Shown here: positions 1 through 19,802 of the stretch, piece after piece | Position numbering within the stretch: the stretch's first letter is position 1 | Layout: each line of letters begins with the position of its first letter | Virus record (IMG/VR): IMGVR_UViG_3300030390_001955 | Location: 1-25,024 of that record | Strand: one strand, 5' to 3' | DNA: 25,024 bases | Origin: a virus | The notes under the pieces: generated by a model | What the model saw: the letters and a program-made list of their open reading frames with translations, nothing else | The model's database searches: none | Told to the model about the DNA's origin: nothing | Translations under genes and position numbers: made by a program

Positions 1-72
1 TAAATTAATGAATGAAACTTCGTGTCCCACTTATATGTAAATATACGAACCCTTCTCCAGGTAACCACATTT
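1..72 (-). repeat. Intergenic 72-bp promoter repeat, copy 1
   Basis: This block is nearly identical to 1336-1407: the first 50 bases match exactly and only three substitutions are apparent over 72 bases. It is also related to 3972-4043. Read on the minus strand it contains a TTG-like box, a TTCG-TATATTTAC promoter core and a conserved leader with GTGGGACACGAAG. The gene it would drive lies beyond the left edge of the window. Confidence 0.85.
37..68 (-). promoter_or_regulatory. Bacteroidota-type promoter (GTG-N20-TATATTTAC)
   Basis: On the minus strand the -33 position is GTG (66-68), followed by exactly 20 nt ending in TTCG, then the -7 box TATATTTAC (37-45). Eight other sites in the window share this architecture. 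It would drive a gene located left of the window. Confidence 0.65.
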
Positions 73-291
73 TTATGCATAAGTCCTTATTTTTTCTTTG
101 CTTACTTGTACTATAGTATTATTCATTTTTATTAAAATATTACCATTATGGTGTATACCAAAGCACTTTTTACGTTTTTCATTATATAATATCCAATCTC
201 CTTTTTTTATCCCTACTGAAGCTTCCTCAACATATGATTTAGGGGAAGGCATTCCTGAATAATGACACCAATTATCTTCCATGTTTTTCAT
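73..291 (-). CDS. Small phage protein of unknown function (72 aa)
   Basis: I do not recognise this protein. It is 72 residues, moderately basic, and its middle part (roughly 27-62: WILYNEKRKKCFGIHHNGNI and onward) reads as a small beta-rich fold. The start overlaps the end of the upstream gene by 20 bases; an alternative ATG at residue 4 (position 282) is equally possible. It is the last gene of the unit starting at the 1372 promoter and is followed directly by the promoter repeat at 1-72. It is probably a non-essential early gene, inferred only from its size and setting. Confidence 0.6.
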   Translation of the reverse strand: MKNMEDNWCHYSGMPSPKSYVEEASVGIKKGDWILYNEKRKKCFGIHHNGNILIKMNNTIVQVSKEKIRTYA

Positions 292-517
292 TTAATAAGT
301 TTTTAAATGCTTCTTCTAATGTTATACCTTCACTTTCAGGTCTAAATCCTACTACTTCACCCTTATTATTAACCCAAAATTCATCTTTAGATGACTCAAA
401 CCAACAATCATCATGATATTGAGCCCACCAACCATTTTCTAGTAAGTATTGTCTTTTATTTATATTCAAGTGGTAAGGATTCGTTAGACTTATCTTTAGG
501 TGTAAATGTTGGATCAT
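272..517 (-). CDS. Small phage protein of unknown function (up to 81 aa)
   Basis: No family recognised. The central part is rich in aromatic residues (ENGWWAQYHDDCWFESSKDEFW) and the C-terminal third is acidic. The ATG at 517 implies a 62-base overlap with the upstream gene, unusually long for this region, and the first 16 residues look unlike the rest. An in-frame TTG at 469 would cut the overlap to 14 bases and give 65 residues, so the start is uncertain. The end overlaps the next gene by 20 bases, consistent with translational coupling within one operon. Confidence 0.6.
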   Translation of the reverse strand: MIQHLHLKISLTNPYHLNINKRQYLLENGWWAQYHDDCWFESSKDEFWVNNKGEVVGFRPESEGITLEEAFKNLLNEKHGR

Positions 518-701
518 CTAATTTTCTGTATTCCATAGAAGCAAATGGCTGTTCACCTATTTCTTTAACAGTTACATCTTGGGAATGTCGTCTATTTTCT
601 ATTGATAACTTTAAATCATTAGCACGTTTTTTAGCCATATAATCATTATCAGCATAAACGTACATATCCATTTGTACTACATATCTTTTATTTTCTCCCA
701 T
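456..701 (-). CDS. Small phage protein of unknown function (81 aa)
   Basis: An 81-residue soluble protein that opens with a beta strand (YVVQMDMYVYA) followed by a helix (DNDYMAKKRANDLKLSIE). This is a small alpha/beta layout of a kind common among uncharacterised phage proteins. The start is well supported: the ATG at 701 is preceded by AATAAAGGTT, the same leader found before at least five other starts in this window. The stop codon of the 29-codon ORF upstream lies inside this leader. No function can be assigned. Confidence 0.7.
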   Translation of the reverse strand: MGENKRYVVQMDMYVYADNDYMAKKRANDLKLSIENRRHSQDVTVKEIGEQPFASMEYRKLDDPTFTPKDKSNESLPLEYK

Positions 702-706
702 AACCT

Positions 707-796
707 TTATTTATTAAAATATTTATTTATTAACTTATCTTTAACTTCTTCACTAATCTGATTGGTTTGATATAATTCTTCTATTAATGTTACCAT
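707..796 (-). CDS. Possible 29-aa microprotein
   Basis: A 29-codon frame (MVTLIEELYQTNQISEEVKD then KLINKYFNK) fills the gap between two genes. Its ATG overlaps the stop of the upstream gene in a TAATG arrangement, and its TAA falls in the ribosome-binding leader of the next gene. It is predicted to be mostly helical, acidic at first and basic at the end. The tight fit suggests a real coupled gene, but it is very short and could be chance. Confidence 0.45.
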   Translation of the reverse strand: MVTLIEELYQTNQISEEVKDKLINKYFNK

Positions 797-1086
797 TATG
801 AGTGTATTTGAATTAATTTATCAATGTCTTCCCTTGATTGCCATCCTAAAACTAAATCATTATCGGCACCAATAAAATTTCCTGCTTGATCAAATACAGC
901 TACCTCGAATGAAGAAACATCTTCAACTTTATTAACTGCTTCTCTAACACCACCTTTACCTGTGCTGTACATACCTTTACCTGCTACAACTGATAATTCA
1001 ATGCCATTATCTAACATAAGTAATCCTTGAATGGCTTCTTTATCTACCTTATGTTGTTTAAATGTAATGTCTTTAAATGTTTTCAT
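796..1086 (-). CDS. Small phage protein of unknown function (96 aa)
   Basis: A 96-residue soluble protein, predicted to be beta-rich in its first two thirds (for example GIELSVVAGKGMYSTGKGGV and SSFEVAVFDQAGNFIGADND), ending in a short helix. No catalytic motif is visible and I do not recognise the family. The ATG at 1086 has the recurrent AATAAAGGTT leader directly upstream. It is the second gene in the unit driven from 1372 and couples to the microprotein downstream through TAATG. Confidence 0.7.
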   Translation of the reverse strand: MKTFKDITFKQHKVDKEAIQGLLMLDNGIELSVVAGKGMYSTGKGGVREAVNKVEDVSSFEVAVFDQAGNFIGADNDLVLGWQSREDIDKLIQIHS

Positions 1087-1098
1087 AACCTTTATTTT

Positions 1099-1323
1099 TT
1101 AGATGTTTGTTTTAGATATTTGTTTTTGTTCTTTTACCCAATTTCTCATAATTTTTAGTGTTTGAGAATCACTCATTTGTACGTAAGTGTTTTCTTTACT
1201 ACACCATTTTTGACAGTCCTTAATTCTATCCCACCAAACGTACCCAAAATCTCCATAATCATTCTTTTCCATAAATTTAATGTAGGAAATCTTTAACTTA
1301 TCTAAACTTTGTAATACTGTCAT
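1099..1323 (-). CDS. Small phage protein of unknown function (74 aa)
   Basis: A longer frame reaches 1365, but that would translate through the promoter repeat. The start chosen is the ATG at 1323 (MTVLQSLDKLKISY), which has the recurrent AATAAAGGTT leader directly upstream. The product is 74 residues, helical, with an aromatic central stretch (YGDFGYVWWDRIKDC). No family recognised. It is the first gene of the operon from the 1372 promoter and has a predicted leader of about 45 nt containing GTGGGACACGAAG. Confidence 0.7.
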   Translation of the reverse strand: MTVLQSLDKLKISYIKFMEKNDYGDFGYVWWDRIKDCQKWCSKENTYVQMSDSQTLKIMRNWVKEQKQISKTNI

Positions 1324-1335
1324 AACCTTTATTTT

Positions 1336-1407
1336 TAAATTAATGAATGAAACTTCGTGTCCCACTTATATGTAAATATACGAACTCTCCTCCGGGTAAC
1401 CACATTT
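1336..1407 (-). repeat. Intergenic 72-bp promoter repeat, copy 2
   Basis: Bases 1336-1385 are identical to bases 1-50 of the window; the remaining 22 bases differ at about three positions. The block separates the stop of the gene ending at 1406 from the gene starting at 1323. It carries both the promoter and a conserved 5' leader, so leader as well as promoter appears to be under selection, or the block was copied recently. Confidence 0.9.
1372..1403 (-). promoter_or_regulatory. Bacteroidota-type promoter (GTG-N20-TATATTTAC)
   Basis: The -33 box GTG is at 1401-1403 and the -7 box TATATTTAC at 1372-1380, with a 20-nt spacer ending in TTCG. It should drive the operon of five or six short genes from 1323 down to 73. 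Confidence 0.65.
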
Positions 1408-1636
1408 AATCGCCGAAAGCTTCAGATAATGTTGCGGGGTTGTCTCTTAAATAAGCATTAAGTTTTGATTGTTGTTTCCAAGAGCTCATAAATTCTTGCT
1501 CAGCAGCGTTAGTTTTAGGTTTTGAAGTATTAAACATCCATGGTGTATTTATTTTACACCATCTAATATAACCAGGATCATATTGTTGTACTTCAGATAT
1601 TAATTGGCCTTTATATTTACCTCTTGGAAATCTCAT
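1406..1636 (-). CDS. DUF3820-like small protein (76 aa), probably from a leaderless mRNA
   Basis: The N-terminal half (MRFPRGKYKGQLISEVQQYD then PGYIRWCK) carries the GKYKG...DPxYIxW pattern of DUF3820-type proteins, also seen as a C-terminal module in some DnaQ-like exonucleases. Here it stands alone without a nuclease core. The frame extends upstream to 1672 but that crosses the terminator and promoter, so the ATG at 1636 is chosen. It lies only 4 nt beyond the -7 box with no room for a ribosome-binding site, which predicts a leaderless transcript. The C-terminal half is polar and unassigned. Function unknown; a nucleic-acid role is only inferred from the family. Confidence 0.65.
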   Translation of the reverse strand: MRFPRGKYKGQLISEVQQYDPGYIRWCKINTPWMFNTSKPKTNAAEQEFMSSWKQQSKLNAYLRDNPATLSEAFGD

Positions 1637-1640
1637 ATAC

Positions 1641-1672
1641 GTGAATATACGAAAAATAATGCGCATCTCCAA
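1641..1672 (-). promoter_or_regulatory. Bacteroidota-type promoter embedded in terminator (TTG-N20-TATATTCAC)
   Basis: TTG at 1670-1672 overlaps the loop of the hairpin 1659-1686. The -7 box TATATTCAC is at 1641-1649, with a 20-nt spacer ending in TTCG. The downstream ATG (1636) falls where transcription should begin. Confidence 0.7.
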
Positions 1673-1686
1673 ATGGAAATGCGCAT
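1659..1686 (-). terminator. Hairpin terminator after the 1749-2705 gene
   Basis: An 8-bp perfect stem ATGCGCAT/ATGCGCAT continues, after one A/C mismatch, into a 3-bp stem with a 4-nt loop (1671-1674). On the minus strand it is followed by TATTTTTCG, a short T-run. It fits an intrinsic terminator ending the unit 2993-1749. Confidence 0.7.
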
Positions 1687-1697
1687 ATCATTAAAAG

Positions 1698-1738
1698 ACT
1701 TACTCTGGGACGCTGTTATAATGGATAGCGTAGTAAGT
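1698..1738 (-). other. Bulged stem-loop in the 3' untranslated region
   Basis: Seven base pairs (ACTTACT/AGTAAGT) stack directly on five more (ACGCT/AGCGT), separated by a one-sided 5-nt bulge at 1705-1709 and closed by a 12-nt loop (1715-1726). It sits between the stop of the acidic protein at 1749 and the terminator at 1659. It contains no reading frame. It may be an mRNA 3'-end structure or a small RNA; I see no tRNA fold. Confidence 0.5.
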
Positions 1739-1748
1739 ACTGTTTATT

Positions 1749-2705
1749 TTACTGGTAATCTTTTAGAAAACGACCGAAGTGTTCTCTTAATGCGATATCA
1801 GGTTCATTAACTGATAAGTATTGGGTAAATTCATCTACAATATCATCATCGTCCCCAGCATTTAGTATATCATCCATATGAGTTTCAATAAATCCTTTAA
1901 GTTCTTCTTTGCTTGCTCCTTTTTCTTTAATTAATAGAGACATAACTTGTTTAATTATTTCATCTCTATCTTCATACGGATCCAATGTAGAATCTATTTC
2001 TTTCATATGACTTGGTTTTATTCCTAGTTTAGCAGCTGCTCTTGAAACTCCATCCCTAGGTTTTTTATCTTTTTCTTTATCTTCTTCTCTAATACTAATA
2101 TCATCTAAAGCATCTCTTGTGCCCATAAACATTGGTATTTCTTCTGGTTTAGGATCTGGTGTTCGGTAAAGACTAAGTCTTTTATGCATTTCATTGTTTA
2201 GATGGTTAATTACATCTTCAGGATAAAACATATCGTCTTCAGTTAAATCCTCCCATATATCATCAAATGCATCTAAAAATTGTGCCTTTAATGGTCTACT
2301 AAGCATACCTTCAATTTTATTAGCTACTTCTTTATCAATTCTTACTTCGTTCATTTTATTTTTATTTGATTTAATATGGGATGTTGCATTTTCATATGAA
2401 TCGCCTTTATCAACTTTTCTGTAAGCTAAAGCTGCTGCTTTTTTCTTACCAGCAGGGATATCATCATCGGCATTTACTATATCATCGTATTTGTCTTCTT
2501 TAATACCTGCTTTGTCTTGAGATGCTTCAATTGCTAAATCAACGGCATCACCTTCTTTTACAGACTTTTCTTTAGCCATCATAGCTTTAATTTTTTTAAT
2601 CATCTCTTTATCAGGATGCTTATCTAGTCTTTCTTCCTCTTGTGCTCGTTCGTAATCTTTGTAACCCATACCTTCATGGATATCTAATAAATTGTATTTA
2701 CTCAT
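1749..2705 (-). CDS. Large acidic helical phage protein, unknown function (318 aa)
   Basis: A 318-residue, highly charged protein with long Asp/Glu/Lys-rich helical stretches: an N-terminal charged helical region (about 17-60), a central PRDGVSRAAAKLGIKPSHMKE segment that looks helix-turn-helix-like (about 217-236), and a C-terminal helical segment with an acidic DDDDIVDE cluster. There is no signal peptide, membrane segment or recognisable catalytic motif. It follows the membrane-anchored gene at 2709-2993 by 3 nt, so the two share a transcript, probably from the AT motif at 3019-3034. Abundance of charge and the shared motif with the virion-like gene at 4568 suggest a late or structural role, but this is inference. 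Confidence 0.8.
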   Translation of the reverse strand: MSKYNLLDIHEGMGYKDYERAQEEERLDKHPDKEMIKKIKAMMAKEKSVKEGDAVDLAIEASQDKAGIKEDKYDDIVNADDDIPAGKKKAAALAYRKVDKGDSYENATSHIKSNKNKMNEVRIDKEVANKIEGMLSRPLKAQFLDAFDDIWEDLTEDDMFYPEDVINHLNNEMHKRLSLYRTPDPKPEEIPMFMGTRDALDDISIREEDKEKDKKPRDGVSRAAAKLGIKPSHMKEIDSTLDPYEDRDEIIKQVMSLLIKEKGASKEELKGFIETHMDDILNAGDDDDIVDEFTQYLSVNEPDIALREHFGRFLKDYQ

Positions 2706-2708
2706 AAT

Positions 2709-2993
2709 TTATTTTTTTGCTTTTGGTTTTCTACCTCTTCGTTTTTTTCCTTTTACAGCATCAACTACATCTTTAGATTGTTTAGCTACTTCTTTAATAG
2801 CAACTCCTACATCTTTAATTTCTTTTTTTACTGCTTTAGCTCTACGCTTAGTTTCTAAAATTGTGTCTTCAATTTCGTCAGGAATAAAATCACCATCACG
2901 GTCATTTATTTTTCCCCTTTTATAAAAACCGAAATAGTAAACGGCAGCTCCGATTACTAAAATTACTACTATAAGACCTATGATTTTTAGCAT
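2709..2993 (-). CDS. Single-pass membrane protein with Ca-loop-like motif and basic tail (94 aa)
   Basis: Residues 3-22 form a hydrophobic segment (IIGLIVVILVIGAAVYYFGF), with no cleavage site evident, so it is probably an N-terminal anchor. It is followed at 29-40 by INDRDGDFIPDE, resembling a thrombospondin type 3 or EF-hand-like calcium loop. A helical stretch (about 41-80) leads to a strongly basic tail containing RRGRKPK, an AT-hook-like sequence. The combination of membrane anchor and possible DNA- or acid-binding tail is unusual. It is co-transcribed with the acidic 318-aa protein, which could bind the basic tail by charge; that is inference only. Family not recognised. Confidence 0.75.
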   Translation of the reverse strand: MLKIIGLIVVILVIGAAVYYFGFYKRGKINDRDGDFIPDEIEDTILETKRRAKAVKKEIKDVGVAIKEVAKQSKDVVDAVKGKKRRGRKPKAKK

Positions 2994-3018
2994 AATAAAT
3001 TTATTGATTAGTATTTTG

Positions 3019-3034
3019 TTATAAATATATAAAA
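3019..3034 (-). promoter_or_regulatory. Candidate second-class (late?) promoter motif
   Basis: On the minus strand the 16-mer TTTTATATATTTATAA lies about 26 nt upstream of the ATG at 2993. The identical 16-mer occurs at 5511-5526 ahead of the virion-like gene. No TTG is found 20 nt upstream, unlike the other promoter class. The plus strand reads TATAAATA, the T4 late box, but in the wrong orientation for these genes. Confidence 0.4.
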
Positions 3035-3035
3035 C

Positions 3036-3452
3036 CTAGGCTAAATTATATTTTTGTTTATACTTATCTACAAATGAAATACCTACTCCAATATCTACTA
3101 TTTCTGCTGTAGTTGGAATACCAACTAATTTATCTGCTGATAATATATAATCTATGTTTTCATTTTTAAACACTTTAATTTTAGTTTTAGCATTAGAACG
3201 ATTTGATGTTTTAAATACTAATACTACAGGTTGCTTACCATATGCTTTACCTTTTTCAGGTTTAAATTTAAGTTGACGTTCACCCTTAGCTGGGAAGTAT
3301 TCTGTTTTATAAGGACCACGATCAAATTTACTTCTATCATAGTGCCAAACTGATCTACTACCTATTTCAGGTTTAGAAGGAACTTCTAACATTTCCTGTG
3401 TATACTTTTGCCATGGTATTGCTTCTTGTTCTTTTGGTCTACCTCTACTCAT
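3036..3452 (-). CDS. Phage protein of unknown function with N-terminal AT-hook-like motif (138 aa)
   Basis: The protein starts MSRGRPKEQE, where RGRP is the core of an AT-hook. The rest has several basic and aromatic strands (SVWHYDRSKFDRGPYKTEYF; KPVVL-type strand QPVVLVFKTSNRS) ending in a beta/alpha segment. It may bind nucleic acid, but the family is not recognised. The ATG at 3452 lies just past the stop of the upstream gene, so the two are coupled. It is the last gene of the unit from the 4008 promoter. Confidence 0.7.
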   Translation of the reverse strand: MSRGRPKEQEAIPWQKYTQEMLEVPSKPEIGSRSVWHYDRSKFDRGPYKTEYFPAKGERQLKFKPEKGKAYGKQPVVLVFKTSNRSNAKTKIKVFKNENIDYILSADKLVGIPTTAEIVDIGVGISFVDKYKQKYNLA

Positions 3453-3453
3453 A

Positions 3454-3753
3454 TTATAGGTTTTTATCTATTTTATTATGTAAATTTGATTCGGCATAAT
3501 TAACTTTACCATACTTATCTTGTATACGAACATTATTACCTTTATGCATTGTGCCTGTATTATTTTTTATAGATTCAAATAAAAAATTAGTGTATGCTTT
3601 AGATTGTTTAAATATAATTTTAAATGGTTTATTTTCTACTTTAAAAGTAAATTCACCCCCATACTGTTCAAATTTCTTACATAGTGTTTTTTGTATAGAT
3701 GTAAAGTAATTCTTTTTAAGAAATAATAATTGTTTTTGCTCTAATTTATTCAT
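3454..3753 (-). CDS. Small basic phage protein of unknown function (99 aa)
   Basis: A 99-residue lysine-rich protein with an N-terminal helix (KLEQKQLLFLKKNYFTSIQK), two central strands (GEFTFKVENKPFKIIFKQ) and a polar C-terminal part. The start at 3753 has the recurrent AATAAAGGTT leader immediately upstream. Not recognised; basic composition would allow nucleic-acid binding but no motif supports it. Confidence 0.7.
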   Translation of the reverse strand: MNKLEQKQLLFLKKNYFTSIQKTLCKKFEQYGGEFTFKVENKPFKIIFKQSKAYTNFLFESIKNNTGTMHKGNNVRIQDKYGKVNYAESNLHNKIDKNL

Positions 3754-3773
3754 AACCTTTATTTCTAAATTAA

Positions 3774-3959
3774 TTATTGTTGGTTTTTACCGTCTGGAGA
3801 ATTGTATTTAGTTGAAACTAACTCACTAGCTAGTTCAGTAATCTTACAATCTTCTATTTGCCAACCTTGTTTTTTAATGGCTTTAATTAAAGCACCCATT
3901 GATGTAACTCTAACATTGTTATTTCTTTTCTTCTTAACATTTGTGATTTGATAAAACAT
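3774..3959 (-). CDS. Small phage protein of unknown function (61 aa)
   Basis: The frame is open back to 4001, but that would read through the promoter leader. The ATG at 3959 (MFYQITNVKKKRNNNVRV) is preceded by AATAAAGGTTAT, the recurrent leader with two extra bases, so it is chosen. The 61-residue product has a strand-turn-strand start and one helix (MGALIKAIKKQGW), like many small early phage proteins. No family recognised. It is the first gene of the unit from the 4008 promoter. Confidence 0.7.
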   Translation of the reverse strand: MFYQITNVKKKRNNNVRVTSMGALIKAIKKQGWQIEDCKITELASELVSTKYNSPDGKNQQ

Positions 3960-3971
3960 ATAACCTTTATT

Positions 3972-4043
3972 TTTAATTATTAATAGAGCTTCGTGCCCCA
4001 CTTATGTGTAAATATACGAACTCTCCTCACGGTATCCAAATTT
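3972..4043 (-). repeat. Intergenic promoter repeat, diverged copy 3
   Basis: It aligns along its length with 1-72 and 1336-1407, conserving the TTCGTG/CCCAC part of the leader, the promoter core and the AACTCTCCTC segment, but with clearly more substitutions than those two show between each other. Confidence 0.75.
4008..4039 (-). promoter_or_regulatory. Bacteroidota-type promoter (TTG-N20-TATATTTAC)
   Basis: TTG at 4037-4039 and TATATTTAC at 4008-4016, with a 20-nt spacer ending in TTCG. It should drive the three genes 3959-3036. Confidence 0.7.
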
Positions 4044-4051
4044 CCCGCGCA

Positions 4052-4486
4052 TTACTTTTCTACACTTTTAATGTGTTTACAGCGTCTGTCTTTTGCTCTC
4101 CATGTACCCGGACAGTTACAGCTGTATTTGCGTATACCATCGACAGATACGTGTTCTTTCGTGGTATAAATCTTGTCATTACTAGATGATTTGAATTTAT
4201 GTTCAAATACCTCAGCACGTTTAACTTTAGGTTTAATCCACTTTATATCACTTAATTCAGTTTCAGGTAATACTTCTTGCCACGTAGGAAGCATATATTT
4301 TTTACCACCTATATTAGCTAAACTTGGAGGATTAATTGCGTGTGTATGTTTATATTTAAATACTTTCACAGCAATAAAATTACCAAAACCTTTTGGATTA
4401 ACTCCGAATGCTTTACCTTTAGGCCAAGATATTACCCTTGTTCTAATGTTACCGTGTTTGTTGTAATTTGAAAATTCGTATAGCAT
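4052..4486 (-). CDS. SWIM-type zinc-finger protein (144 aa)
   Basis: The C-terminal segment (about 110-144) contains C123-x-C125, then C136-x-H138 in YSCNCPGTWRAKDRRCKHIK. This is the CxCxnCxH signature of SWIM zinc fingers, which bind nucleic acid or partner proteins in SNF2 helicases, transposases and phage proteins. Residues 1-100 are basic and beta-rich without a recognised domain. The frame is open to 4546, but that would cross the terminator and promoter; the ATG at 4486 has the AATAAAGGTT leader and is used here. It appears to be a single-gene unit between two promoters. Confidence 0.75.
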   Translation of the reverse strand: MLYEFSNYNKHGNIRTRVISWPKGKAFGVNPKGFGNFIAVKVFKYKHTHAINPPSLANIGGKKYMLPTWQEVLPETELSDIKWIKPKVKRAEVFEHKFKSSSNDKIYTTKEHVSVDGIRKYSCNCPGTWRAKDRRCKHIKSVEK

Positions 4487-4502
4487 AACCTTTATTTTAT
4501 AC

Positions 4503-4534
4503 GTGAATATACGAACAAATGGTGGGAAAGCCAA
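4503..4534 (-). promoter_or_regulatory. Bacteroidota-type promoter embedded in terminator (TTG-N20-TATATTCAC)
   Basis: TTG at 4532-4534 lies inside the 5-nt loop of the hairpin 4522-4544. The -7 box TATATTCAC is at 4503-4511, spacer 20 nt ending in TTCG. The predicted leader to the ATG at 4486 is only about 12 nt and contains AAAGG. Confidence 0.75.
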
Positions 4535-4544
4535 GCTTTCCCAC
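4522..4544 (-). terminator. Strong hairpin terminator after the virion-like gene
   Basis: A perfect 9-bp stem GTGGGAAAG/CTTTCCCAC with a 5-nt loop (4531-4535), located 23 nt downstream of the stop of the 4568-5479 gene. The following minus-strand bases CCATTTGTTCG are only modestly T-rich. The loop holds the -33 box of the next promoter. Confidence 0.75.
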
Positions 4545-4567
4545 ATTTATCTTTATGTAATTTATTA

Positions 4568-5479
4568 TTAACTTGCTACACCTGTTTTTGTAGAAGTAGA
4601 AGTAATACCTAATGCTGGAGTTCCTTGTCTACGTGCAATATTAGTTAATATTGTATTAAACGTACCATCCCCAGTTGTTATTGTTCCACTATTTAATGCT
4701 ACTGTAGACCCTGCCGCAAAACTAACTGTATCTGCCTGAAGTACACCAGCTACTACTGTAATAGAACCTCCTGTTGATCCAACCCCTAAAGAATCAGCTG
4801 CAAATGTAATTACTTCATTTGGAATGAAATCATTCCCAATTCCTGCTACATTAACTTCAATAATATTACCACCGACAACCTCTACTATCAGTACAATATC
4901 TTTTCCAGCACCTGATGTTGTATAATTAGTATTTGCTGCAAATGTATATATCTCATCTACAGGTGTTCCTGGTTGTACTACAGTACCTCCAGCTGATACT
5001 AAGTCAACTCCATTTTCTACAACGTTAGCTGAAAACCCTTGAGATGTAACTATAGCTGTTGGGTGAGGATGTTGAAATGTTAATTCATCTGTACCTGAAC
5101 CAGCACTGAATGTATAATTAAAAGTTGCTGCTGTTCCACCACCAAATTGATTATTTGCTACTGTAACTAATGGAGTACCTGTAACTAGTACTGGTTTTGC
5201 AAATTTAACTTTTAAGGTTTGTGTATTACCTGTATTTGTTTGAAATACTGGTAAAGCATCAAATGTTGCTGATGTTACTCCGTTTAAGCTTGTTCCTCCA
5301 GTTTGTGCTCTTTGTTGTTGAATAGCTTGTTGTTGTTGTAAAAAATCCATGTATTGATTTTCAAACAACAGTTTTTCTTTCCTATATTTTTGAGTTGCTT
5401 CTTGAAGGGGAAGATTTTTATTTTCTTTCTTCGTTTTCCAAATTGCCCAATTTCCAGGGTCGTTTGCTGTGTATACCAT
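4568..5479 (-). CDS. Putative virion structural protein, beta-rich (303 aa)
   Basis: Residues 1-60 are helical and polar, with a Gln-rich stretch (FLQQQQAIQQQRAQ, about 46-59) that could form a coiled coil. From about 61 the sequence is Gly/Thr/Val/Ser-rich with no Cys and repeating strand-turn units (TFNYTFSAGSGTDELTF; VITFAADSLGVGSTGGSITV; ADTVSFAAGSTVALNSGTIT). This composition is typical of phage tail fibres, head decorations and other virion surface proteins. The family is not recognised. The ATG at 5479 has the leader AATAAAGACTA and lies about 30 nt below the 16-mer AT motif at 5511. A strong terminator follows, so it is probably expressed alone and at high level. Confidence 0.75.
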   Translation of the reverse strand: MVYTANDPGNWAIWKTKKENKNLPLQEATQKYRKEKLLFENQYMDFLQQQQAIQQQRAQTGGTSLNGVTSATFDALPVFQTNTGNTQTLKVKFAKPVLVTGTPLVTVANNQFGGGTAATFNYTFSAGSGTDELTFQHPHPTAIVTSQGFSANVVENGVDLVSAGGTVVQPGTPVDEIYTFAANTNYTTSGAGKDIVLIVEVVGGNIIEVNVAGIGNDFIPNEVITFAADSLGVGSTGGSITVVAGVLQADTVSFAAGSTVALNSGTITTGDGTFNTILTNIARRQGTPALGITSTSTKTGVAS

Positions 5480-5510
5480 TAGTCTTTATTTTACTAGAGT
5501 TAGTTGTTTA

Positions 5511-5526
5511 TTATAAATATATAAAA
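5511..5526 (-). promoter_or_regulatory. Candidate second-class (late?) promoter motif
   Basis: The minus-strand 16-mer TTTTATATATTTATAA is identical to that at 3019-3034 and lies about 31 nt upstream of the virion-like gene's ATG. No TTG box is present at the 20-nt distance. Confidence 0.4.
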
Positions 5527-5551
5527 ATTATTGTTTCAATGTTTTTTTATG

Positions 5552-5698
5552 TTAATTTAATAATTTATCTTGAGTATTAATTTTTTGTAGGTCAAATGAT
5601 AAAGCATAACATAAATTTTTTAATTGACCTGCTTCATGGATTGCTATAAAATCTTCATCTGTTAAATTATTAAATAAGGATAATGCATTTAAATCCAT
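5552..5698 (-). CDS. Small phage protein of unknown function (48 aa)
   Basis: A 48-residue frame (MDLNALSLFNNLTDEDFIAI then HEAGQLKNLCYALSFDLQ...) predicted to be two or three amphipathic helices. An in-frame ATG four codons earlier (5710) would overlap the upstream stop by 8 nt. The ATG at 5698 has AAAAGGGA about 13 nt upstream and is preferred. It is the last gene of the unit that begins near 7124. No function assigned. Confidence 0.6.
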   Translation of the reverse strand: MDLNALSLFNNLTDEDFIAIHEAGQLKNLCYALSFDLQKINTQDKLLN

Positions 5699-5702
5699 AA
5701 TA

Positions 5703-6056
5703 TTATCCATTCCCTTTTCTTTTTGAATTAAGAGTTATAATTACTCCTTCCCATTTACCTAATACTATTTCATTATCTACTAAGAAATCTATTTTATTAG
5801 TAAATCTTTTATTCATCCTATCTTCAACAACCCATATACCATCCATCTTACCAGCGTTTTCAACACATACTTCTACTCCAAAGGTAAACCCTAATTTTTC
5901 TAAATCTCTAGATACTGCAATCCATTTATGTTTGCCTGGGTTATCGGCATCAATATGTTTATTAGAAGCGGTAATTAAGGGTGTTGAATCCGTTTGAGAA
6001 GGTACTGCATTATAAACAGTAGCCATTACAATATGTAAAGCGATTAATAATTTCAT
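5703..6056 (-). CDS. 3D-domain (RlpA/MltA-like double-psi barrel) protein, probable cell-wall enzyme (117 aa)
   Basis: A short hydrophobic start (MKLLIALHIVMA) could be a minimal signal peptide. Residues 12-112 match the 3D domain found in MltA-type lytic transglycosylases and Bacillus YabE/YocH-like proteins. The three conserved aspartates are seen in QTDSTPLITAS (D23), VVEDRMNKRFTNK and KIDFLVDN, together with the typical IAVSRDL strand. By family knowledge the domain binds or cleaves peptidoglycan glycan strands. In a phage this suggests a role in lysis or in wall penetration by the virion. It lies between two tiny genes in a tightly coupled unit upstream of the virion-like gene. Confidence 0.75.
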   Translation of the reverse strand: MKLLIALHIVMATVYNAVPSQTDSTPLITASNKHIDADNPGKHKWIAVSRDLEKLGFTFGVEVCVENAGKMDGIWVVEDRMNKRFTNKIDFLVDNEIVLGKWEGVIITLNSKRKGNG

Positions 6057-6058
6057 AG

Positions 6059-6229
6059 TTAAAAGTTTTTTAAAAAATCACCATTGATTTTCTTATCCTG
6101 TAATTTACGAAATTTTTCGTCGTTAGCCAAGCTTTTTGTGGCAAGTTTTTCTAAATGTCTTTCTTTTTGCTTATCATAATCCTTAGTAATCTTATGATAC
6201 TTTTTATCTAATGACTTTATTTTTTTCAT
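6059..6229 (-). CDS. Small highly basic helical protein (56 aa)
   Basis: A 56-residue frame (MKKIKSLDKKYHKITKDYDK then QKERHLEKLATKSL...) made of one long charged helix, probably a coiled coil, with lysine as the main residue. Its ATG overlaps the stop of the HNH-like gene in an ATGA junction, and its stop is 2 nt before the start of the 3D-domain gene. The precise fit supports a real gene. Function unknown; it may be a partner or regulator of its lysis-like neighbour, which is a guess from position. Confidence 0.6.
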   Translation of the reverse strand: MKKIKSLDKKYHKITKDYDKQKERHLEKLATKSLANDEKFRKLQDKKINGDFLKNF

Positions 6230-6843
6230 ATTCTGCTTATGTATTGGTTGGGATCATCTTCATTATCACCATCTAAACCTAACTCTTTTAGACGTTGTAA
6301 ATGATAATCATCTACTTCCCATTCTACTTTTTCGCTAGTACCAAAATGTTCCTGTTTAGTTTCTATTTGTTTAACATCCTTAGCATTAAATATATCACCA
6401 ACAGTTAAAAAATAATGATTATAACAAAGTAACTGGACATTATCCAAGCCGTAGTTATTACTATTATTATCTTGGAAGTGTAACAGCAAAGGAATTTTAT
6501 AGTCAAGTACTCTACGTTCTTTAAATTTACATACAGCACATTCCTCTAACATATACCCCTGTTCTATTAAGGCATATTTTAGTTTATCAGGATTAAATGA
6601 AGATGCTGCTATCCTACCTTCAATTATTTCAAGCATGTGAGGCATTTTCTTAGGTCCCCTTAAAAATTTAGGGATACCTTTACCTTGTTGGTTTTTATGT
6701 CCTGCAAATAATTTATATAATTTAGCCCACTTCTTATAGTGTTGATATGACACATGAAGATATCTAGCAGCAGCCATATTAGACTTAGTTTTTGCTTGGG
6801 CTGCTACAATCTGTTCTTTAGATAAAGGTTTTGCCTTAGGCAT
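6226..6843 (-). CDS. HNH-like protein with N-terminal HTH (205 aa)
   Basis: Residues about 8-45 (SKEQIVAAQAKTKSNMAAAR then YLHVSYQHYKKWA) look like a helix-turn-helix of the type in phage homeodomain-like proteins. Residues 102-143 hold C102-x2-C105, then LLLHFQDNNSNNYGLDNVQLLC with H122, D125-N126, N135 and C140-x2-H143. This matches the Zn-binding beta-beta-alpha layout of HNH endonucleases, although the second Cys of the usual C-terminal CxxC is replaced and H143 may serve instead. It could be a DNA-binding nuclease, a homing-type enzyme or a degenerate regulator. The C-terminal 40 residues are acidic. It couples to neighbours through TAATG and ATGA overlaps. Confidence 0.65.
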   Translation of the reverse strand: MPKAKPLSKEQIVAAQAKTKSNMAAARYLHVSYQHYKKWAKLYKLFAGHKNQQGKGIPKFLRGPKKMPHMLEIIEGRIAASSFNPDKLKYALIEQGYMLEECAVCKFKERRVLDYKIPLLLHFQDNNSNNYGLDNVQLLCYNHYFLTVGDIFNAKDVKQIETKQEHFGTSEKVEWEVDDYHLQRLKELGLDGDNEDDPNQYISRI

Positions 6844-7124
6844 TAATTTAATTTAAAGGTTACTGTGTCACCACTACTACCTCTTTCTCTATTAGTAGTA
6901 TTTACAAAAGATTCATATTGATCTTCTTCCATTATTATTGTCTCAGTCCAAGTATGGTCACCTGAACCCTTTGTTATTGGTATGCCACGTTTAGTGCTAA
7001 CACTAGAACAGTTAACACATACTTTATAACCATATTGAGTTAGCCTTAATTCAGGCATATCTTCTTTACATTTAATACAAGGAATCATTTTCATTTTTAT
7101 AGATGTTTTAATAGTCTGCCGCAT
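6843..7124 (-). CDS. Small zinc-ribbon protein (up to 93 aa)
   Basis: C16-x2-C19 and C36-x2-C39 (CIKCKEDMPELRLTQYGYKV then CVNC) form a treble-clef or ribbon like that of DksA/TraR-family proteins, and the EDMPELRL spacer resembles the DksA type. The remainder (KRGIPITKGSGDHTWTETI) is unassigned. The ATG at 7124 lies within an AT-rich motif. A start at residue 11 (7094, MKMIPC) would leave a longer leader and is a serious alternative. If it acts like TraR it could tune host RNA polymerase, but that is inference. First gene of the unit down to 5552. Confidence 0.65.
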   Translation of the reverse strand: MRQTIKTSIKMKMIPCIKCKEDMPELRLTQYGYKVCVNCSSVSTKRGIPITKGSGDHTWTETIIMEEDQYESFVNTTNRERGSSGDTVTFKLN

Positions 7125-7134
7125 AAATATATAA
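7123..7134 (-). promoter_or_regulatory. Possible weak second-class promoter motif
   Basis: The minus-strand sequence TTATATATTTAT shares 12 bases with the motif at 3019 and 5511, here overlapping the annotated ATG of the zinc-ribbon gene. It makes sense as a promoter only if translation starts at 7094. Confidence 0.25.
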
Positions 7135-7151
7135 CCTTTTAAAAATTGGAA

Positions 7152-7183
7152 TGGAATATACGAATATTAGATTAATTAACCAA
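7152..7183 (-). promoter_or_regulatory. Bacteroidota-type promoter overlapping the end of a glycosyltransferase gene
   Basis: TTG (7181-7183) is a leucine codon near the end of the upstream gene. The 20-nt spacer ends in TTCG and the -7 box is TATATTCCA (7152-7160). It should start the unit 7124-5552, with an AAAAGG sequence in the leader. Confidence 0.65.
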
Positions 7184-8317
7184 ATATTCTTTCATATTAA
7201 TTATATTAATTTTTAAATTACCTAGTTCAAAATCACCAATTTGACCACTATCTTGAATTATAGCTGCTAGTTGGTTTAAGAAAATATAATCCTGTTGATT
7301 AAAACTTGAGGCATCTACACTTACTAAAATATTATTTTGTTTTTCATTATCATAAGGTTTTATTCTATCAAATAAATCAGTAATTGTTCTTTTTGATTCT
7401 TTTTCTATATAATTTTTATAATCACAGTCAACATATAAAGTATCAAACCAAGGCTCTAACATTTCAATAAATTGTTCATTACAATTTTTAATTATTAAAC
7501 CTTTATCATATTTAGGGTGTATAATAGGATATTGATAAGAATCATTTTGGATCCATTCCCCCCATTTTCTTAAAAATTCTCTCCTACATCTATCCATCGT
7601 TTCCTTATAGTCAGAATTTTCAACTCCAACTCCTCCATTCCATCTATGACCTCTACAAGTCATATGATAACATAAAGAATCTCTGGATTGAGTCATTTCA
7701 TATCCAGCTTGAATCCATCTATTAAATATATCTGAATCTTCATAACCATAAGGGGTAAATCGTTGATCATGACCTCCTATACTCAAATGGTCTTCTTTAT
7801 ATAACATCCAAGGTGCAAATATACCTTTTGTAGTTACATCTTTATCTTTTTTAGCAGTATCTATAACAAAATTTTCAAATGCCTCCCAGGTAAAATCATT
7901 ATGGTCAACCCCAAAATTTTGAGTATGTTTTTCTAACCCTGTAGGATGAATTGGTGGTTCAATTCTAGTAGCACATACAACACTTAGAGGTTTAAGATGT
8001 TTTAACATATTTTCAAAATACCCTGGTCCTATAATCATATCTGAATGTAGTATAGATACAATTGGGGTTTTGGCTCTTCTCATCCCTTCATCATACCAAT
8101 AGGTATGTCCTTTTCTTTCTTTACCTATAATAGTAGTTAGATTTTTATCATCTAAACTATTTAACCATATATCAGTACCATCTTCAGATGCATCATCTAT
8201 AATAATCATAGGCACATTAGGAGCATATTTTTTTATACTTTGGTATGTATTTTTTAAATGTTCTAATGTGTTGTAACTAGGAATTATTACAGTATGCTGT
8301 TGATTTCTTTTCTCCAT
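7172..8317 (-). CDS. Family 2 glycosyltransferase with extra C-terminal domain (381 aa)
   Basis: The N-terminal ~230 residues are a GT-A fold: VIIPSYNTLEHL (10-21), the nucleotide-binding IIIDDASEDGT (38-47) and HSD at 91-93 in the place of the usual DxD metal motif. GGHDQRFTPYGYEDSDIFNRW (181-201) supplies the acceptor/catalytic acidic pair seen in galactosyltransferase-like GT2/GT27 members. It should transfer a sugar from an activated nucleotide donor. Residues 240-381 are a separate alpha/beta part without an assignment. It is the last gene of the glycan operon, overlaps the preceding gene by 31 nt, and has a promoter for the next unit inside its 3' end. Confidence 0.8.
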   Translation of the reverse strand: MEKRNQQHTVIIPSYNTLEHLKNTYQSIKKYAPNVPMIIIDDASEDGTDIWLNSLDDKNLTTIIGKERKGHTYWYDEGMRRAKTPIVSILHSDMIIGPGYFENMLKHLKPLSVVCATRIEPPIHPTGLEKHTQNFGVDHNDFTWEAFENFVIDTAKKDKDVTTKGIFAPWMLYKEDHLSIGGHDQRFTPYGYEDSDIFNRWIQAGYEMTQSRDSLCYHMTCRGHRWNGGVGVENSDYKETMDRCRREFLRKWGEWIQNDSYQYPIIHPKYDKGLIIKNCNEQFIEMLEPWFDTLYVDCDYKNYIEKESKRTITDLFDRIKPYDNEKQNNILVSVDASSFNQQDYIFLNQLAAIIQDSGQIGDFELGNLKINIINMKEYLVN

Positions 8318-9267
8318 ATATTTAAATCGTAATGTTTTCTATATAATTCTTTACATTGTTTGCTACACTTATTGTAAAATTCTTTATCATTCTTTAACCT
8401 ATTAGCCAATATACGAGCTTTTTCTACATCATCCACAGATACTGCTAATTCAGGATGACATAATCTTTGTGTATCGACATCTTTATTTCCTATACACGGG
8501 ATTCCAAAATAGGCACAGTTTAAACTAAAAGTACCAGCTGCTACAGTAGGCATTAAATGTACTGCGTATTTAAACGTAGATAATGTACTCATCCATTTAT
8601 CCCATGACAACCTATTAAGGTGATTTAAATCGGGTATATTTTCCTCTAATTTACGTTTAGCATGAGATTCTTGAGCCCATTTTTCACATTCGAATTCACT
8701 AGCAACTATATAACTTTGAAACCCACCATACCATCTTGCAAAATTACCACCTATAATTACTTTATTCTCCTTAGTCGGCTTAACATCTTTAATTAAGTCT
8801 TCAATTAATAGTGTTTTGATTACTTTAACTTCGTTATTTGGAAATAAACCTTTATAGAATTTAGAATCAATTTCGTTATGAGAAAATATAGTGTCACATT
8901 TGGATAAAATATTATAAAAATTAAATTGGTCTATAATATTATAATCATTAAACCACCAATTAGGACCTTCTTGTATATAATGTACTTTTTTATTATGAGT
9001 TTTTAACTTATCAATAAAGTCAGAAGCATATAAATTGGATACTGGGTTTATAGAGTTTGATATTTCACTTCCTTCTGCACTTAGATTTAGTTTACCCTTA
9101 GGTAAAATTAAAAATACATGATCATAATCTCTTATGTCATTATATAAACTTAAATTTTTATGGTGTGCGTCTAAAGCATTCATCCAAGCAAATTCGGTAC
9201 GCATATTTGTGTGTGTAGAAGAGATTTTACCCTCAAAACCCATTTCTGATAAGAATACTATGTTCAT
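8287..9267 (-). CDS. GT-B-type glycosyltransferase (326 aa)
   Basis: A two-Rossmann layout is suggested: the N-terminal half starts MNIVFLSEMGFEG and contains YDHVFLILPKGK. The C-terminal half has the nucleotide-sugar-binding region AAGTFSLNCAYFGIPCIGNK (about 246-265), followed by the typical closing helices (DKEFYNKCSKQCKELYRKHY). No clear metal motif is present, as expected for GT-B enzymes. Donor and acceptor unknown. The start overlaps the upstream SDR gene by 4 nt (ATGA type), so it is translated as part of the operon. Confidence 0.7.
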   Translation of the reverse strand: MNIVFLSEMGFEGKISSTHTNMRTEFAWMNALDAHHKNLSLYNDIRDYDHVFLILPKGKLNLSAEGSEISNSINPVSNLYASDFIDKLKTHNKKVHYIQEGPNWWFNDYNIIDQFNFYNILSKCDTIFSHNEIDSKFYKGLFPNNEVKVIKTLLIEDLIKDVKPTKENKVIIGGNFARWYGGFQSYIVASEFECEKWAQESHAKRKLEENIPDLNHLNRLSWDKWMSTLSTFKYAVHLMPTVAAGTFSLNCAYFGIPCIGNKDVDTQRLCHPELAVSVDDVEKARILANRLKNDKEFYNKCSKQCKELYRKHYDLNIWRKEINSIL

Positions 9268-9971
9268 TGTGTTAAAGATTTTAATTCAATAATTTGTTTT
9301 TTAATATTCCCAGTTTTAATATCCCCTATTAGAGTTTTATTTTTACCTAATTCTTTTGGAATTATATTAATATCTTTATTATATACATCTTTTATGGTAT
9401 TTAATAATTCATATTTAGATATAGGATTACTAGATAATGTAGTTAAACTTTTATAAGTATCCCAATTATTTATTAATTCTAAACATTGTTTAGACCACTC
9501 ATAAGTGGTAACCCCATTCCATATAGCCTTAGTATACCCAAATACTTCTTTTTCCTGTGATAAAAACCATTCTAATAAACTGGAATTAGAGTTTAATTCG
9601 GGACCTATTATAGATGCCTTTAAAATTTTAGTATTTTGTCCATATTTTAATATAAAATCTGATGCTTTTTTCTTACTTAAACCATAATTATCAGTATCCA
9701 TTTCACAATCAGTTCCTGGGTGTATAATTTTACATGAAGTATTTTCTATTAACCATATAGGGAGTTTATAATTTATTTCAAAATTATTTGTTCTTTGAGG
9801 TATTGCTCCTATACAATTAATTATAAAATCTTGTTTATTAAATGTTGATTTATCAAAATCAGGGAACCTTTGAGGGGTTATAGATACATTTAAATTTTTT
9901 ATTTTATTTAGGACGTTATAAACCATATGACCCAACATTCCTTTATGACCTAATATAAGTACATTATTCAT
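9264..9971 (-). CDS. RmlD-like NAD(P)-dependent sugar reductase/epimerase (235 aa)
   Basis: The Rossmann start VLILGHKGMLGHMVYNVL (4-21) matches the GxxGMLG of dTDP-4-dehydrorhamnose reductases (RmlD). FIINCIGAIPQ (49-59) is the expected fourth strand, and Y96-x3-K100 (YGLSK) is the catalytic pair of extended SDRs. At 235 residues it is shorter than typical RmlD (about 290), mainly in the C-terminal substrate domain. It probably carries out the reduction step of a deoxy-sugar nucleotide made by the dehydratase at 10630-11556. Exact substrate cannot be told from sequence alone. Confidence 0.75.
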   Translation of the reverse strand: MNNVLILGHKGMLGHMVYNVLNKIKNLNVSITPQRFPDFDKSTFNKQDFIINCIGAIPQRTNNFEINYKLPIWLIENTSCKIIHPGTDCEMDTDNYGLSKKKASDFILKYGQNTKILKASIIGPELNSNSSLLEWFLSQEKEVFGYTKAIWNGVTTYEWSKQCLELINNWDTYKSLTTLSSNPISKYELLNTIKDVYNKDINIIPKELGKNKTLIGDIKTGNIKKQIIELKSLTQ

Positions 9972-10633
9972 TGTTTAATACTTTTATAATAATCTAAAAT
10001 TTCATTTAATTTTTGATCAAATTCATTACTACCTATATTATTTAACCTATCATATACTTCTTTTACATTAGTATGATATAGTTTATATTTAACTTTCTGA
10101 TTATCTATCACCTGGATGGCATCTAGTACATGACATAGTGATATTGGGTTTGTATTATATTGAGATTCCAAATTATTAACTATATTATAGGCAAAGGTAT
10201 AAACAAAACAATTATAATAAGGTTTACCTTTGGTTCCAAATAAATTAGGTAATTTATAATTTTCAAATTTTATATTATTATCAATACAATATTCACCTAA
10301 AATATGTGTGGTATCTCTTTTAGCTTTCCCATACAAGGAATTAGGGTTAGATTCTTGTATAGAAGAAATATATTTAATAGGAATCTTAAGGTTATGTTTT
10401 TTTAACTCACCTATTAATGTTTTTGTTATTTGAATATTTTCTTTATATATCTCTTTGGAGGTATTTGATTCTTTCCCCCCAATAAAAGCACAGTGAATTA
10501 AAAAATTACAATCTTTTGCTTTTGTAATATCATAATTTCTTCCAAGTTTTATAACACTATCTCCCTTATTAGTATAGTATTCTGTTAAATGGGTACCTAA
10601 AAATCCATGTGCCCCTAAAATAGCTATTTTCAT
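9968..10633 (-). CDS. NAD(P)-dependent sugar epimerase/reductase, extended SDR (221 aa)
   Basis: Begins MKIAILGAHGFLGTHLTEYY with the GxxGxxG dinucleotide-binding loop (7-13). It has LIHCAF (45-50) in place of the usual LxHxAA, YISSIQ (88-93) and the Y101-x3-K105 catalytic pair (YGKAK). At 221 residues the C-terminal domain is reduced. It overlaps both neighbours by 4 nt and probably acts on the same nucleotide sugar as the adjacent dehydratase and RmlD-like enzyme. Whether it is an epimerase or reductase cannot be decided. Confidence 0.75.
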   Translation of the reverse strand: MKIAILGAHGFLGTHLTEYYTNKGDSVIKLGRNYDITKAKDCNFLIHCAFIGGKESNTSKEIYKENIQITKTLIGELKKHNLKIPIKYISSIQESNPNSLYGKAKRDTTHILGEYCIDNNIKFENYKLPNLFGTKGKPYYNCFVYTFAYNIVNNLESQYNTNPISLCHVLDAIQVIDNQKVKYKLYHTNVKEVYDRLNNIGSNEFDQKLNEILDYYKSIKQ

Positions 10634-11556
10634 GGTCTAAAATAGTTAAATGATTCCAACATTTCTTTTAATTCGGTTTTAGATACACATACTTTATCAC
10701 TTGTAAATTCTTCTTTTTGGTTAGAATCTGTTATATCTTTATAATGCATATAAATAGTATTATCCTTTAAGGTTTGACATCTTGGTGATTCTTCTTTTGA
10801 AATCATCATCTCATGTATCTTTTCAGATATTCTTGGTTTTCCAATTTTATATGTTAATCCGAATTCTTCTTCAAATATTTCAAATAAATCTTTAACTAGA
10901 AATGATTTTAAATCAGGTATAACATTAAAACCACTAGTATTAAGTCCTTTTTCAATTAAATCCATTGCCTCTTCTATGTCAATCATAAAACGAGTCATTT
11001 TATCTGAATATAGTGTAAGAGGATAATCTTTATCAATAGAATCCCAAATTAGTGGTATTATACTACCCGTAGAATTCAATACATTACCGTATACTGCGGT
11101 AGATAAACGTACATTAGAATCTTCAGCATTAACTATGAATGATTCACCTGCTACAAATTTCATAGCGCCATATAACGTAGTTGCTGCTCTTGATTTGTCT
11201 GAAGATATAAAACATGCTGCTTCAAAATTATTGTCTTCGGCTGCTCTTCTTGAGTTTATAGCACCATCAATAATTACTTTTATAGATTCTTCTACATTTT
11301 GGTCTACAGCCCCTATTTGTTTTAAAGATGCTGCGAATATTCCTATATCATGTCCAAAAGCAGATCTAGTTAATAAATCATAATTTCTAATATCCCCTAT
11401 AATACATTTAATATTAGGAAATTCTTTTTTTAAATAATAATGTTTAGCCTCATCTCTAGAATAGACAGTGATTTCATTATCCTTATAATAACGTTTTACT
11501 AAATTAGATCCTAAAAAACCAGCACCTCCTGTTATAAATATTTTTTTATTTTTCAT
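10630..11556 (-). CDS. UDP-N-acetylglucosamine 4,6-dehydratase-like enzyme (CapE/FnlA/PseB type, 308 aa)
   Basis: The dinucleotide loop GGAGFLG (10-16), GDIRNYD (53-59), AASLKQI (74-80), SSDK (117-120) and Y128-x3-K132 (LYGAMK) match the soluble polysaccharide-synthesis dehydratases (PF02719 type) such as PseB, FnlA and CapE. By family these take UDP-GlcNAc to a 4-keto-6-deoxy intermediate, some with C5 inversion. The two SDR genes that follow could complete a 6-deoxy-amino-sugar donor, an arrangement reminiscent of capE-capF-capG, but the specific product is inference. Length is near the usual 320-340. No membrane segment, so cytoplasmic. Confidence 0.8.
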   Translation of the reverse strand: MKNKKIFITGGAGFLGSNLVKRYYKDNEITVYSRDEAKHYYLKKEFPNIKCIIGDIRNYDLLTRSAFGHDIGIFAASLKQIGAVDQNVEESIKVIIDGAINSRRAAEDNNFEAACFISSDKSRAATTLYGAMKFVAGESFIVNAEDSNVRLSTAVYGNVLNSTGSIIPLIWDSIDKDYPLTLYSDKMTRFMIDIEEAMDLIEKGLNTSGFNVIPDLKSFLVKDLFEIFEEEFGLTYKIGKPRISEKIHEMMISKEESPRCQTLKDNTIYMHYKDITDSNQKEEFTSDKVCVSKTELKEMLESFNYFRP

Positions 11557-11560
11557 TTTT

Positions 11561-12361
11561 TTATTTTTTTATTATTAAAACCCAATTTTCGTTTATATGA
11601 GTTTTTATACCCTCAGCATAAGTTTCAACTGTGGTAAAATGTTTTTTTAATTCATTTAGTAAAAAAGATTTTCTATCTTCATCCCACATATTCATTAAGA
11701 AATAACCAAATTTACAATTTTGAATAACTTCTTTGATATAAAAATCCATCCCTTGTTTATCAAATTCACTAAGACACCAATTAGATATAACTAAATCCCA
11801 TTGATCTTGTTTTATATTTTTATTACTCCAAAAATCTACGTTTGAATAATTTAAACCTGTTAAATATTTTTTTTGCAGTTCGTTTACATGTTTTACATCA
11901 ATTAAGGTACAATGTTTAACCCCATAATCTAATAAAACTTTTGCTTGTCCTCCATATCCTGGACCTATTTCTACAACTTTAAAATTTGATATATCTCCTA
12001 TTTTATCAATTATATCATTTAAAATAGAGGCATGGTATACTGTACCTGGTGATATAAAACCTACTTGTTCTACTTCATATAAATCTGGGGATCCTATACT
12101 GTCTCCAGATGCAAAAAGAGGTAGTAGTTTTTGAATGCTAGGATTTGTTATTGTAGATAACCAGTCTTCTGCATAGCGTTTACTTCTAACATCTGATCCT
12201 ACTATAGATGTAAACTGTGGGTGTCTTTTAAATTCTTTAAATAGATTCTCATCGTGGCATGCTCTATAACAAAAGTTAAAAAAATCATTACCATAATGTG
12301 CTTCTTTATCATCTATAGGATCAGCACTCCATTCCCCTTCATATGTTTTTGTGTTACTCAT
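11561..12361 (-). CDS. SAM-dependent methyltransferase, putative sugar O-methyltransferase (266 aa)
   Basis: The segment VVEIGPGYGGQAKVLLDYGV (129-148) is a class I methyltransferase motif I, followed by LIDVKHV (motif II acidic residue) and WDLVISNWCLSEF (post-motif region). The overall pattern resembles the putative sugar O-methyltransferases found in polysaccharide clusters. The frame extends to 12424, but the ATG at 12361 (MSNTKTYEGEW) overlaps the preceding stop by only 8 nt and is preferred over a 71-nt overlap. It would methylate a hydroxyl on a sugar made or transferred by neighbouring enzymes. Confidence 0.75.
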   Translation of the reverse strand: MSNTKTYEGEWSADPIDDKEAHYGNDFFNFCYRACHDENLFKEFKRHPQFTSIVGSDVRSKRYAEDWLSTITNPSIQKLLPLFASGDSIGSPDLYEVEQVGFISPGTVYHASILNDIIDKIGDISNFKVVEIGPGYGGQAKVLLDYGVKHCTLIDVKHVNELQKKYLTGLNYSNVDFWSNKNIKQDQWDLVISNWCLSEFDKQGMDFYIKEVIQNCKFGYFLMNMWDEDRKSFLLNELKKHFTTVETYAEGIKTHINENWVLIIKK

Positions 12362-13268: not shown

Positions 13269-13285
13269 ATAATTTTTTTAATTCT

Positions 13286-15390: not shown

Positions 15391-15396
15391 ATTATT

Positions 15397-15840: not shown

Positions 15841-15841
15841 T

Positions 15842-18778: not shown

Positions 18779-18820
18779 AGTCTTTATTTATTAAAACATT
18801 ATTTATATATATACGTATGT

Positions 18821-18852
18821 GGGAATCTACGAAAAATGTTCACCGGCTCCAC
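18821..18852 (-). promoter_or_regulatory. Variant Bacteroidota-type promoter overlapping the nuclease stop codon
   Basis: GTG at 18850-18852, a 20-nt spacer ending in TTCG, and TAGATTCCC at 18821-18829, where TAG is also the stop codon of the nuclease gene. The -7 box is weaker than elsewhere. Also in this gap, at 18799-18806, the minus strand reads TATAAATA, which matches the T4 late box. Either could start the glycan operon. Confidence 0.5.
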
Positions 18853-19801: not shown

Positions 19802-19802
19802 A

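Follow-up and report, generated by a model that had tools for sequence, protein, structure and literature searches.

Analysis of a viral DNA stretch of 25,024 nucleotides (the whole stretch is hereafter called the window) revealed three junctions between co-directional genes, termed sites 1 to 3, which by their sequence are probably overlapping intrinsic terminators and promoters. At each of them, a stem-loop carries the TTG of a -33 box in or at its loop, and the spacing from TTG to the TATATT of the -7 box is 20 nt at all three sites. Such a short DNA segment apparently acts both as a terminator in RNA and as a promoter in DNA, two constraints that are separated by covariation. Every confident gene of the window lies on the minus strand, and the phage is marine, with a host probably among the Bacteroidota. 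The features at the three sites are as follows.

1659-1686, minus strand: hairpin of site 1, ATGCGCATTTCC-ATTT-GGAGATGCGCAT, then TATTTTTCG-TATATTCAC
4052-4486, minus strand: SWIM gene, with a SWIM-like motif CxCP...CKH and the start codon ATG at 4486-4484
4487-4503, minus strand: predicted start-site region plus the leader preceding the start codon, almost invariant in SWIM orthologues
4504-4515, minus strand: TTCG (4515-4512) and -7 box TATATTCA (4511-4504), recurring at other minus-strand gene starts
4522-4544, minus strand: terminator-like stem-loop of site 2, with a 9-bp stem and CTTGG loop or a 10-bp stem and TTG loop
4532-4534, minus strand: -33 box TTG within the hairpin loop, exactly 20 nt before TATATT
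4568-5479, minus strand: upstream ORF of 303 aa, function unknown, with its stop 24 nt before the hairpin
22307-22328, minus strand: hairpin of site 3, GGGGGAGC-TTTTG-GTTCCCCC, then CATTTATTTTTCG-TATATTTAC

Site 2 and its two sister sites

On the minus strand, the junction from the stop at 4568 to the SWIM ATG at 4486 reads ...GTGGGAAAGCTTGGCTTTCCCAC CATTTG TTCG TATATTCAC GTATAAAATAAAGGTT ATG. The hairpin (4544-4522) has the form GTGGGAAAG-CTTGG-CTTTCCCAC, which bears out an earlier note made from the sequence alone, in that it consists of a perfect 9-bp stem and a 5-nt loop containing the TTG of the promoter; an alternative pairing yields 10 bp with the loop TTG. The TTG (4534-4532) lies exactly 20 nt 5' of TATATTCA. 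Among all stems of 8 bp or more in the window, this is the sole one having six G-C pairs, and its RNA fold reaches -20.6 kcal/mol (z -5.4), a stability equalled in 0 of 200 shuffles. Site 2 thus possesses the stable G+C-rich RNA hairpin at a gene end that is typical of intrinsic terminators. The eight bases 3' of the stem (CATTTGTT) include just five T, making site 2 the poorest terminator among the three sites, whereas the stems of sites 1 and 3 are followed by good T-tracts (TATTTTTCG and CATTTATTTTTCG, respectively).

The earlier note had further stated that the stem of site 2 differs from those at the two sister sites, and indeed it shares no sequence with 1686-1659 or ~22328-22307. The placement of TTG varies slightly among the sites: it lies wholly in the loop at site 2 and at the 3' side of the TTTTG loop at site 3, and it straddles the ATTT loop and the 3' arm at site 1, where the 3' arm begins with the G of TTG. 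The relative L439 retains, at the site-1 junction, a 12-bp stem with altered pairs, has TAG at -33 and ends in an eight-T tail (TTTTTTTTCG).

In the 25 orthologues of the SWIM gene, conservation starts at the ATG at 4486. The start assigned by the ORF caller (4546, inside the hairpin region) was rejected, because the ATG at 4486 alone is common to the orthologues. A Pfam search of the SWIM gene gave no match, and no protein relatives were found among named phages; PHROG and Pfam searches of the 303-aa ORF were equally without match, as were the Rfam and tRNA searches.

A promoter type recurring in phages

The primary-sigma promoter of Bacteroidota comprises a -33 TTTG and a -7 TAnnTTTG, and in Flavobacterium johnsoniae there is little -33 motif and a near-invariant G at -5 (PMC6847099). 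The predicted promoters at the three sites resemble this type in the TTG at -35 to -33, the TAnnTT at -7 and the matching spacing. The -7 box TATATTCA matches TAnnTT, but has C at -6 and A at -5. As transcripts of F. johnsoniae start 4-5 nt past the -7 box (PMC6847099), the start site of the SWIM transcript was placed by the same spacing within 4487-4503.

The same core is present at the minus-strand positions 24786, 1653, 49, 1384, 4020, 7164 and 22298, in most cases where a gene starts, and direct reading revealed TTG or GTG 20 nt before TATATT at these cores. Pattern scans of IMG/VR together with three orthologue searches yielded 839 non-redundant cores of T[TA][CT][GA]TATATT, of which 428 have TTG at the 20-nt spacing, compared to 3-35 at any other spacing; since TTG was demanded by one scan, though not by the other two, the number 428 is inflated in absolute terms. 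The correct spacing between a -33 TTG and the -7 box is thus found at sites 1 to 3 and in roughly half of the cores, and the element of TTCG plus -7 box occurs in hundreds of phage loci. The motif takes the form TTG-N16-TTCGTATATT[TC]AC, and a slightly stricter form was found in just 25 stretches across 84,980 prokaryote genomes; it therefore looks phage-specific.

Compared to the Bacteroidota primary-sigma promoters (PMC6847099), the phage set is distinguished by a strict TTG, a strict 20-nt spacing and a conserved TTCG, and it has mostly A at -5, rather than the G of F. johnsoniae. The strict -33 box, the TTCG and the A at -5 may indicate the involvement of a phage-modified polymerase or of another host clade. 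In the first 50 kb of Flavobacterium phage immuto, promoters of this type are nearly absent, and no isolate with the system was identified. A generic sigma-70 promoter scan was uninformative in the A+T-rich window, with 90 promoters found compared to 132 expected.

Several motif-bearing contigs were assigned to a Pelagibacter bin (L452 and L462), a Woesearchaeota bin (L449 and L467) or a Rickettsiaceae bin (L459), and are apparently misbinned phage. In addition, a 49-nt stretch of TTCG, -7 box and leader (TTCGTATATTTACATATAAGTGGGACACGAAGTTTCATTCATTAATTTA) has mismatch-free copies at 1-49 and 1336-1384 on the minus strand of the window, and a diverged copy is located ahead of the gene whose start is near 4001; this repeat is a duplicated promoter-leader cassette. 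The leader motifs GTGGGACACGAAG and GGCGGGAACGTC just past the start site (window 1384-1336, L452 and L461) possibly form small 5' hairpins; by fold energies, the leader region as a whole is unstructured in the promoter set.

Covariation, hairpin placement and the RNA strand

The orthologues of the gene downstream of site 3 provided 14 distinct hairpin junctions, in which a structure-anchored count of the seven inner pairs found 98 of 98 cells paired, with both sides changed in five pairs. The loop TTG is retained in 13 of the 14, and replaced by TAG in one. A formal covariation test on the gap-free subset of nine members gave 0.382, compared to 0.214 in shuffled alignments (0 of 500), and slid controls were all far lower. 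Two MAFFT alignments (A1 and A2) were set aside, as they misplace the 5' arm owing to varying loop lengths. The covariation analysis in related phages, which the earlier note had proposed as a check, therefore revealed among the site-3 orthologues both compensatory stem changes and a largely conserved loop TTG.

The junctions of the SWIM orthologues are more diverse. The hairpin of site 2 is shared by L124 alone, with an identical stem and hence no compensatory change. Unrelated hairpins are found in L130 (ATGGCAACC-AATTT-GGTTGCCAT) and in L133/L134 (AGAGCTGCTT-GGAA-AAGCGGCTCT), both having an apex TTG and the 20-nt spacing, whereas a strong hairpin is missing from most other SWIM junctions, whose -33 position is occupied by TAG, GTG or TTG. 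A missing loop TTG, which the earlier note would have taken as evidence against its proposal, was thus not seen among the hairpin-bearing SWIM orthologues.

Over positions -50 to -4, hairpins of at least 7 bp are present in 23 of the 428 promoters, compared to 0.6 in TTG-keeping shuffles; some promoters share a contig or come from related phages, so these counts represent fewer independent events. The hairpins concentrate at -25 to -12 relative to TATATT, with almost none nearby, and an upstream same-strand ORF end is close in 22 of 26 cases. Their centres peak at -22/-23, with TTG in or at the loop, and at -17/-18, with TTGG in the 5' arm, in addition to a smaller group near -13 that lies wholly within the spacer. 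Hairpins with TTG in the 5' arm (centre ~-17) are at least as many as those with a loop TTG. Accordingly, at least three geometries recur, among them the loop TTG, which holds at site 2 but is no general rule. The fold-energy excess also peaks over -45 to 0, at -2.00 ± 0.19 on the sense strand compared to -1.36 on the antisense strand, with flanks of -0.8 to +0.2. A generic terminator scan of positions 1-20000 found seven terminators compared to 6.6 expected; as this count matches chance, the significance of the hairpins lies in their placement relative to the promoter rather than in their number.

The selection on a composite structure that the earlier note had argued for is thus supported in the wider phage group by the site-3 covariation, the apex-TTG hairpins at SWIM junctions and the enrichment between the -33 and -7 boxes, whereas the loop position as an invariant is not supported, given the 5'-arm and spacer classes. 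Most orthologous SWIM junctions, moreover, are free of a hairpin, and several have TAG or GTG at -33.

Alternatively, these segments might be promoters only, with the inverted repeat a by-product, neutral or due to chance, of the extended consensus TTTGGnTnCCC and with no terminator at site 2. This would agree with the weak T-tract of site 2, the absence of the hairpin from most orthologous SWIM junctions and the generic terminator count, yet we consider it improbable. Exchanging promoter halves while keeping the consensus gave 4.5 hairpins (maximum 7) compared to the 23 observed, and eight TTG-centred stems were observed against 0.2 in this control (0.1-0.2 in all controls). The site-3 covariation and the stable fold of site 2 also speak against a promoter alone.

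Single stem interruptions are G-U on the sense strand in 30 cases and on the antisense strand in seven (p = 2e-4), compared to 14 to 11 in the combined control regions, which implies that the stems act as sense-strand RNA. In addition, TTG-centred hairpins are followed by 5.1 T in eight bases, compared to 3.5 of eight at the same positions of hairpin-free promoters. The G-U bias and this T excess together argue for an RNA terminator of the upstream transcript. It is very unlikely that the symmetry instead serves as a DNA palindrome controlling initiation rather than transcript ends, either as a dimeric-regulator site centred on the -33 box or as a cruciform of the kind extruded at the promoters of the N4 virion RNA polymerase. 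In many cases the -33 box is the exact centre of the symmetry, and some hairpins lack a U-tract, as such a palindrome would allow; however, stems unrelated between sites are incompatible with a sequence-reading regulator, the wobbles favour the sense RNA strand, and the boxes are of host-sigma type with host spacing. We likewise give very little credence to the hairpin guarding the 3' end of the upstream mRNA, or being cut by an RNase, without itself terminating, as the RNA-level constraint, the spacer hairpins and the poor U-tracts are compatible with this role but the T enrichment directly after TTG-centred stems and the long U-tracts of L319 (~9 T) and L439 (8 T) are hallmarks of terminators.

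Several points stand against the reading as overlapping terminators and promoters: the poor T-tract of site 2, the TTG-centred hairpins of L050, L122, L269 and L256 that have no U-tract, the lack of T excess in the classes centred at -17 and -13, the majority of promoters of this type being without a strong hairpin, and the A at -5 compared to the G of F. johnsoniae (PMC6847099). Spacer hairpins of the form TTGG-AACCCC-GAAA-GGGGTT-TCGTATATT fill the space between the -33 and -7 boxes without a U-tract (L074, L158, L195, L459 and others). Their GNRA tetraloops were dropped as an RNA signature, being equally frequent in flanking control regions.

Putative mechanism, module border and related systems

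We propose that, at an overlapping terminator-promoter junction, the hairpin would form in the upstream transcript, which would then stop within the T-rich interval separating the -33 box from the -7 box. In duplex form, the DNA of this junction would present the -33 TTG at the hairpin apex and the -7 box just past the U-tract to a host-type RNA polymerase, and the next transcript would begin ~30 nt past the apex. Since the predicted start site lies beyond the end of the hairpin, the new transcript would be free of it. The stem could drift by compensatory substitution, while the promoter would fix the apex TTG and the 20-nt spacing. Termination and initiation at the predicted junctions are what we infer from the geometry, its recurrence and enrichment, the sister-site covariation, the sense-strand RNA bias and the modular break, all of which were observed computationally.

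This modular break became apparent upon comparison of the window with the nearer SWIM orthologues, which are mostly 0.86-1.0 identical 3' of -4 and, L124 excepted, near random 5' of it. The SWIM gene retains the -7 half, and the sequence 5' of ~-4 is swapped between phages, including the upstream genes; a module border thus lies inside the promoter. At site 2, the upstream gene and the terminator at its end would carry the -33 half along, and the SWIM gene the -7 half. We tentatively raise the idea, doubtful as it is, that Bacteroidota phages split promoters across module borders, the terminator hairpin of each gene bearing a -33 box in a fixed position and its 5' end a -7 box, to be rejoined by recombination. 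If so, recombination would recreate an overlapping terminator-promoter, leaving shuffled genes both insulated and expressed. The junctions suggest how compact Bacteroidota phages insulate and shuffle genes. The promoter geometry could help to annotate phages that are nearly without transcript maps, and the compact junction is a possible insulator-promoter part for Bacteroidota genetics.

The nearest known kind appears to be the PeSL cassettes of T4-type phages, reportedly mobile regulatory cassettes of a promoter and a stem-loop. Like the window junctions, PeSLs reportedly combine a promoter with a terminating stem-loop where adjacent phage genes run in the same direction and tend to be shuffled, and the break at -4 and the swapped upstream genes of the SWIM junction agree with this. 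They differ in that the window sites have neither a T4 early promoter nor homologous cassettes moving as units: the promoter is of Bacteroidota type, and the hairpins at different sites share no common sequence. Moreover, hairpin and promoter overlap in the window, the apex of the hairpin holding the -33 box, and the module break is inside the promoter, a layout that PeSLs are not known to share. A literature search of partial coverage found no paper in which the loop of a terminator is described as the -33/-35 box.

The overlap may provide insulation, compactness or the recycling of polymerase onto the adjacent promoter. In E. coli, polymerase that has terminated is able to diffuse to a promoter close by and initiate there again (Kang et al. 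2020, PMC6978380), where the terminator likewise adjoins a promoter, pointing to a possible benefit of the overlap. In that work, the templates for the E. coli polymerase were designed and kept the two elements apart, whereas the elements predicted in the window overlap.

The window also codes for a T4-type clamp loader. A phage-encoded GroES-GroEL pair lies at 22533-24456, with the GroEL sharing 60% identity with that of Flavobacterium phage immuto, and about ten genes resembling those for glycosyltransferases or sugar epimerases lie in a row at 7172-18585.
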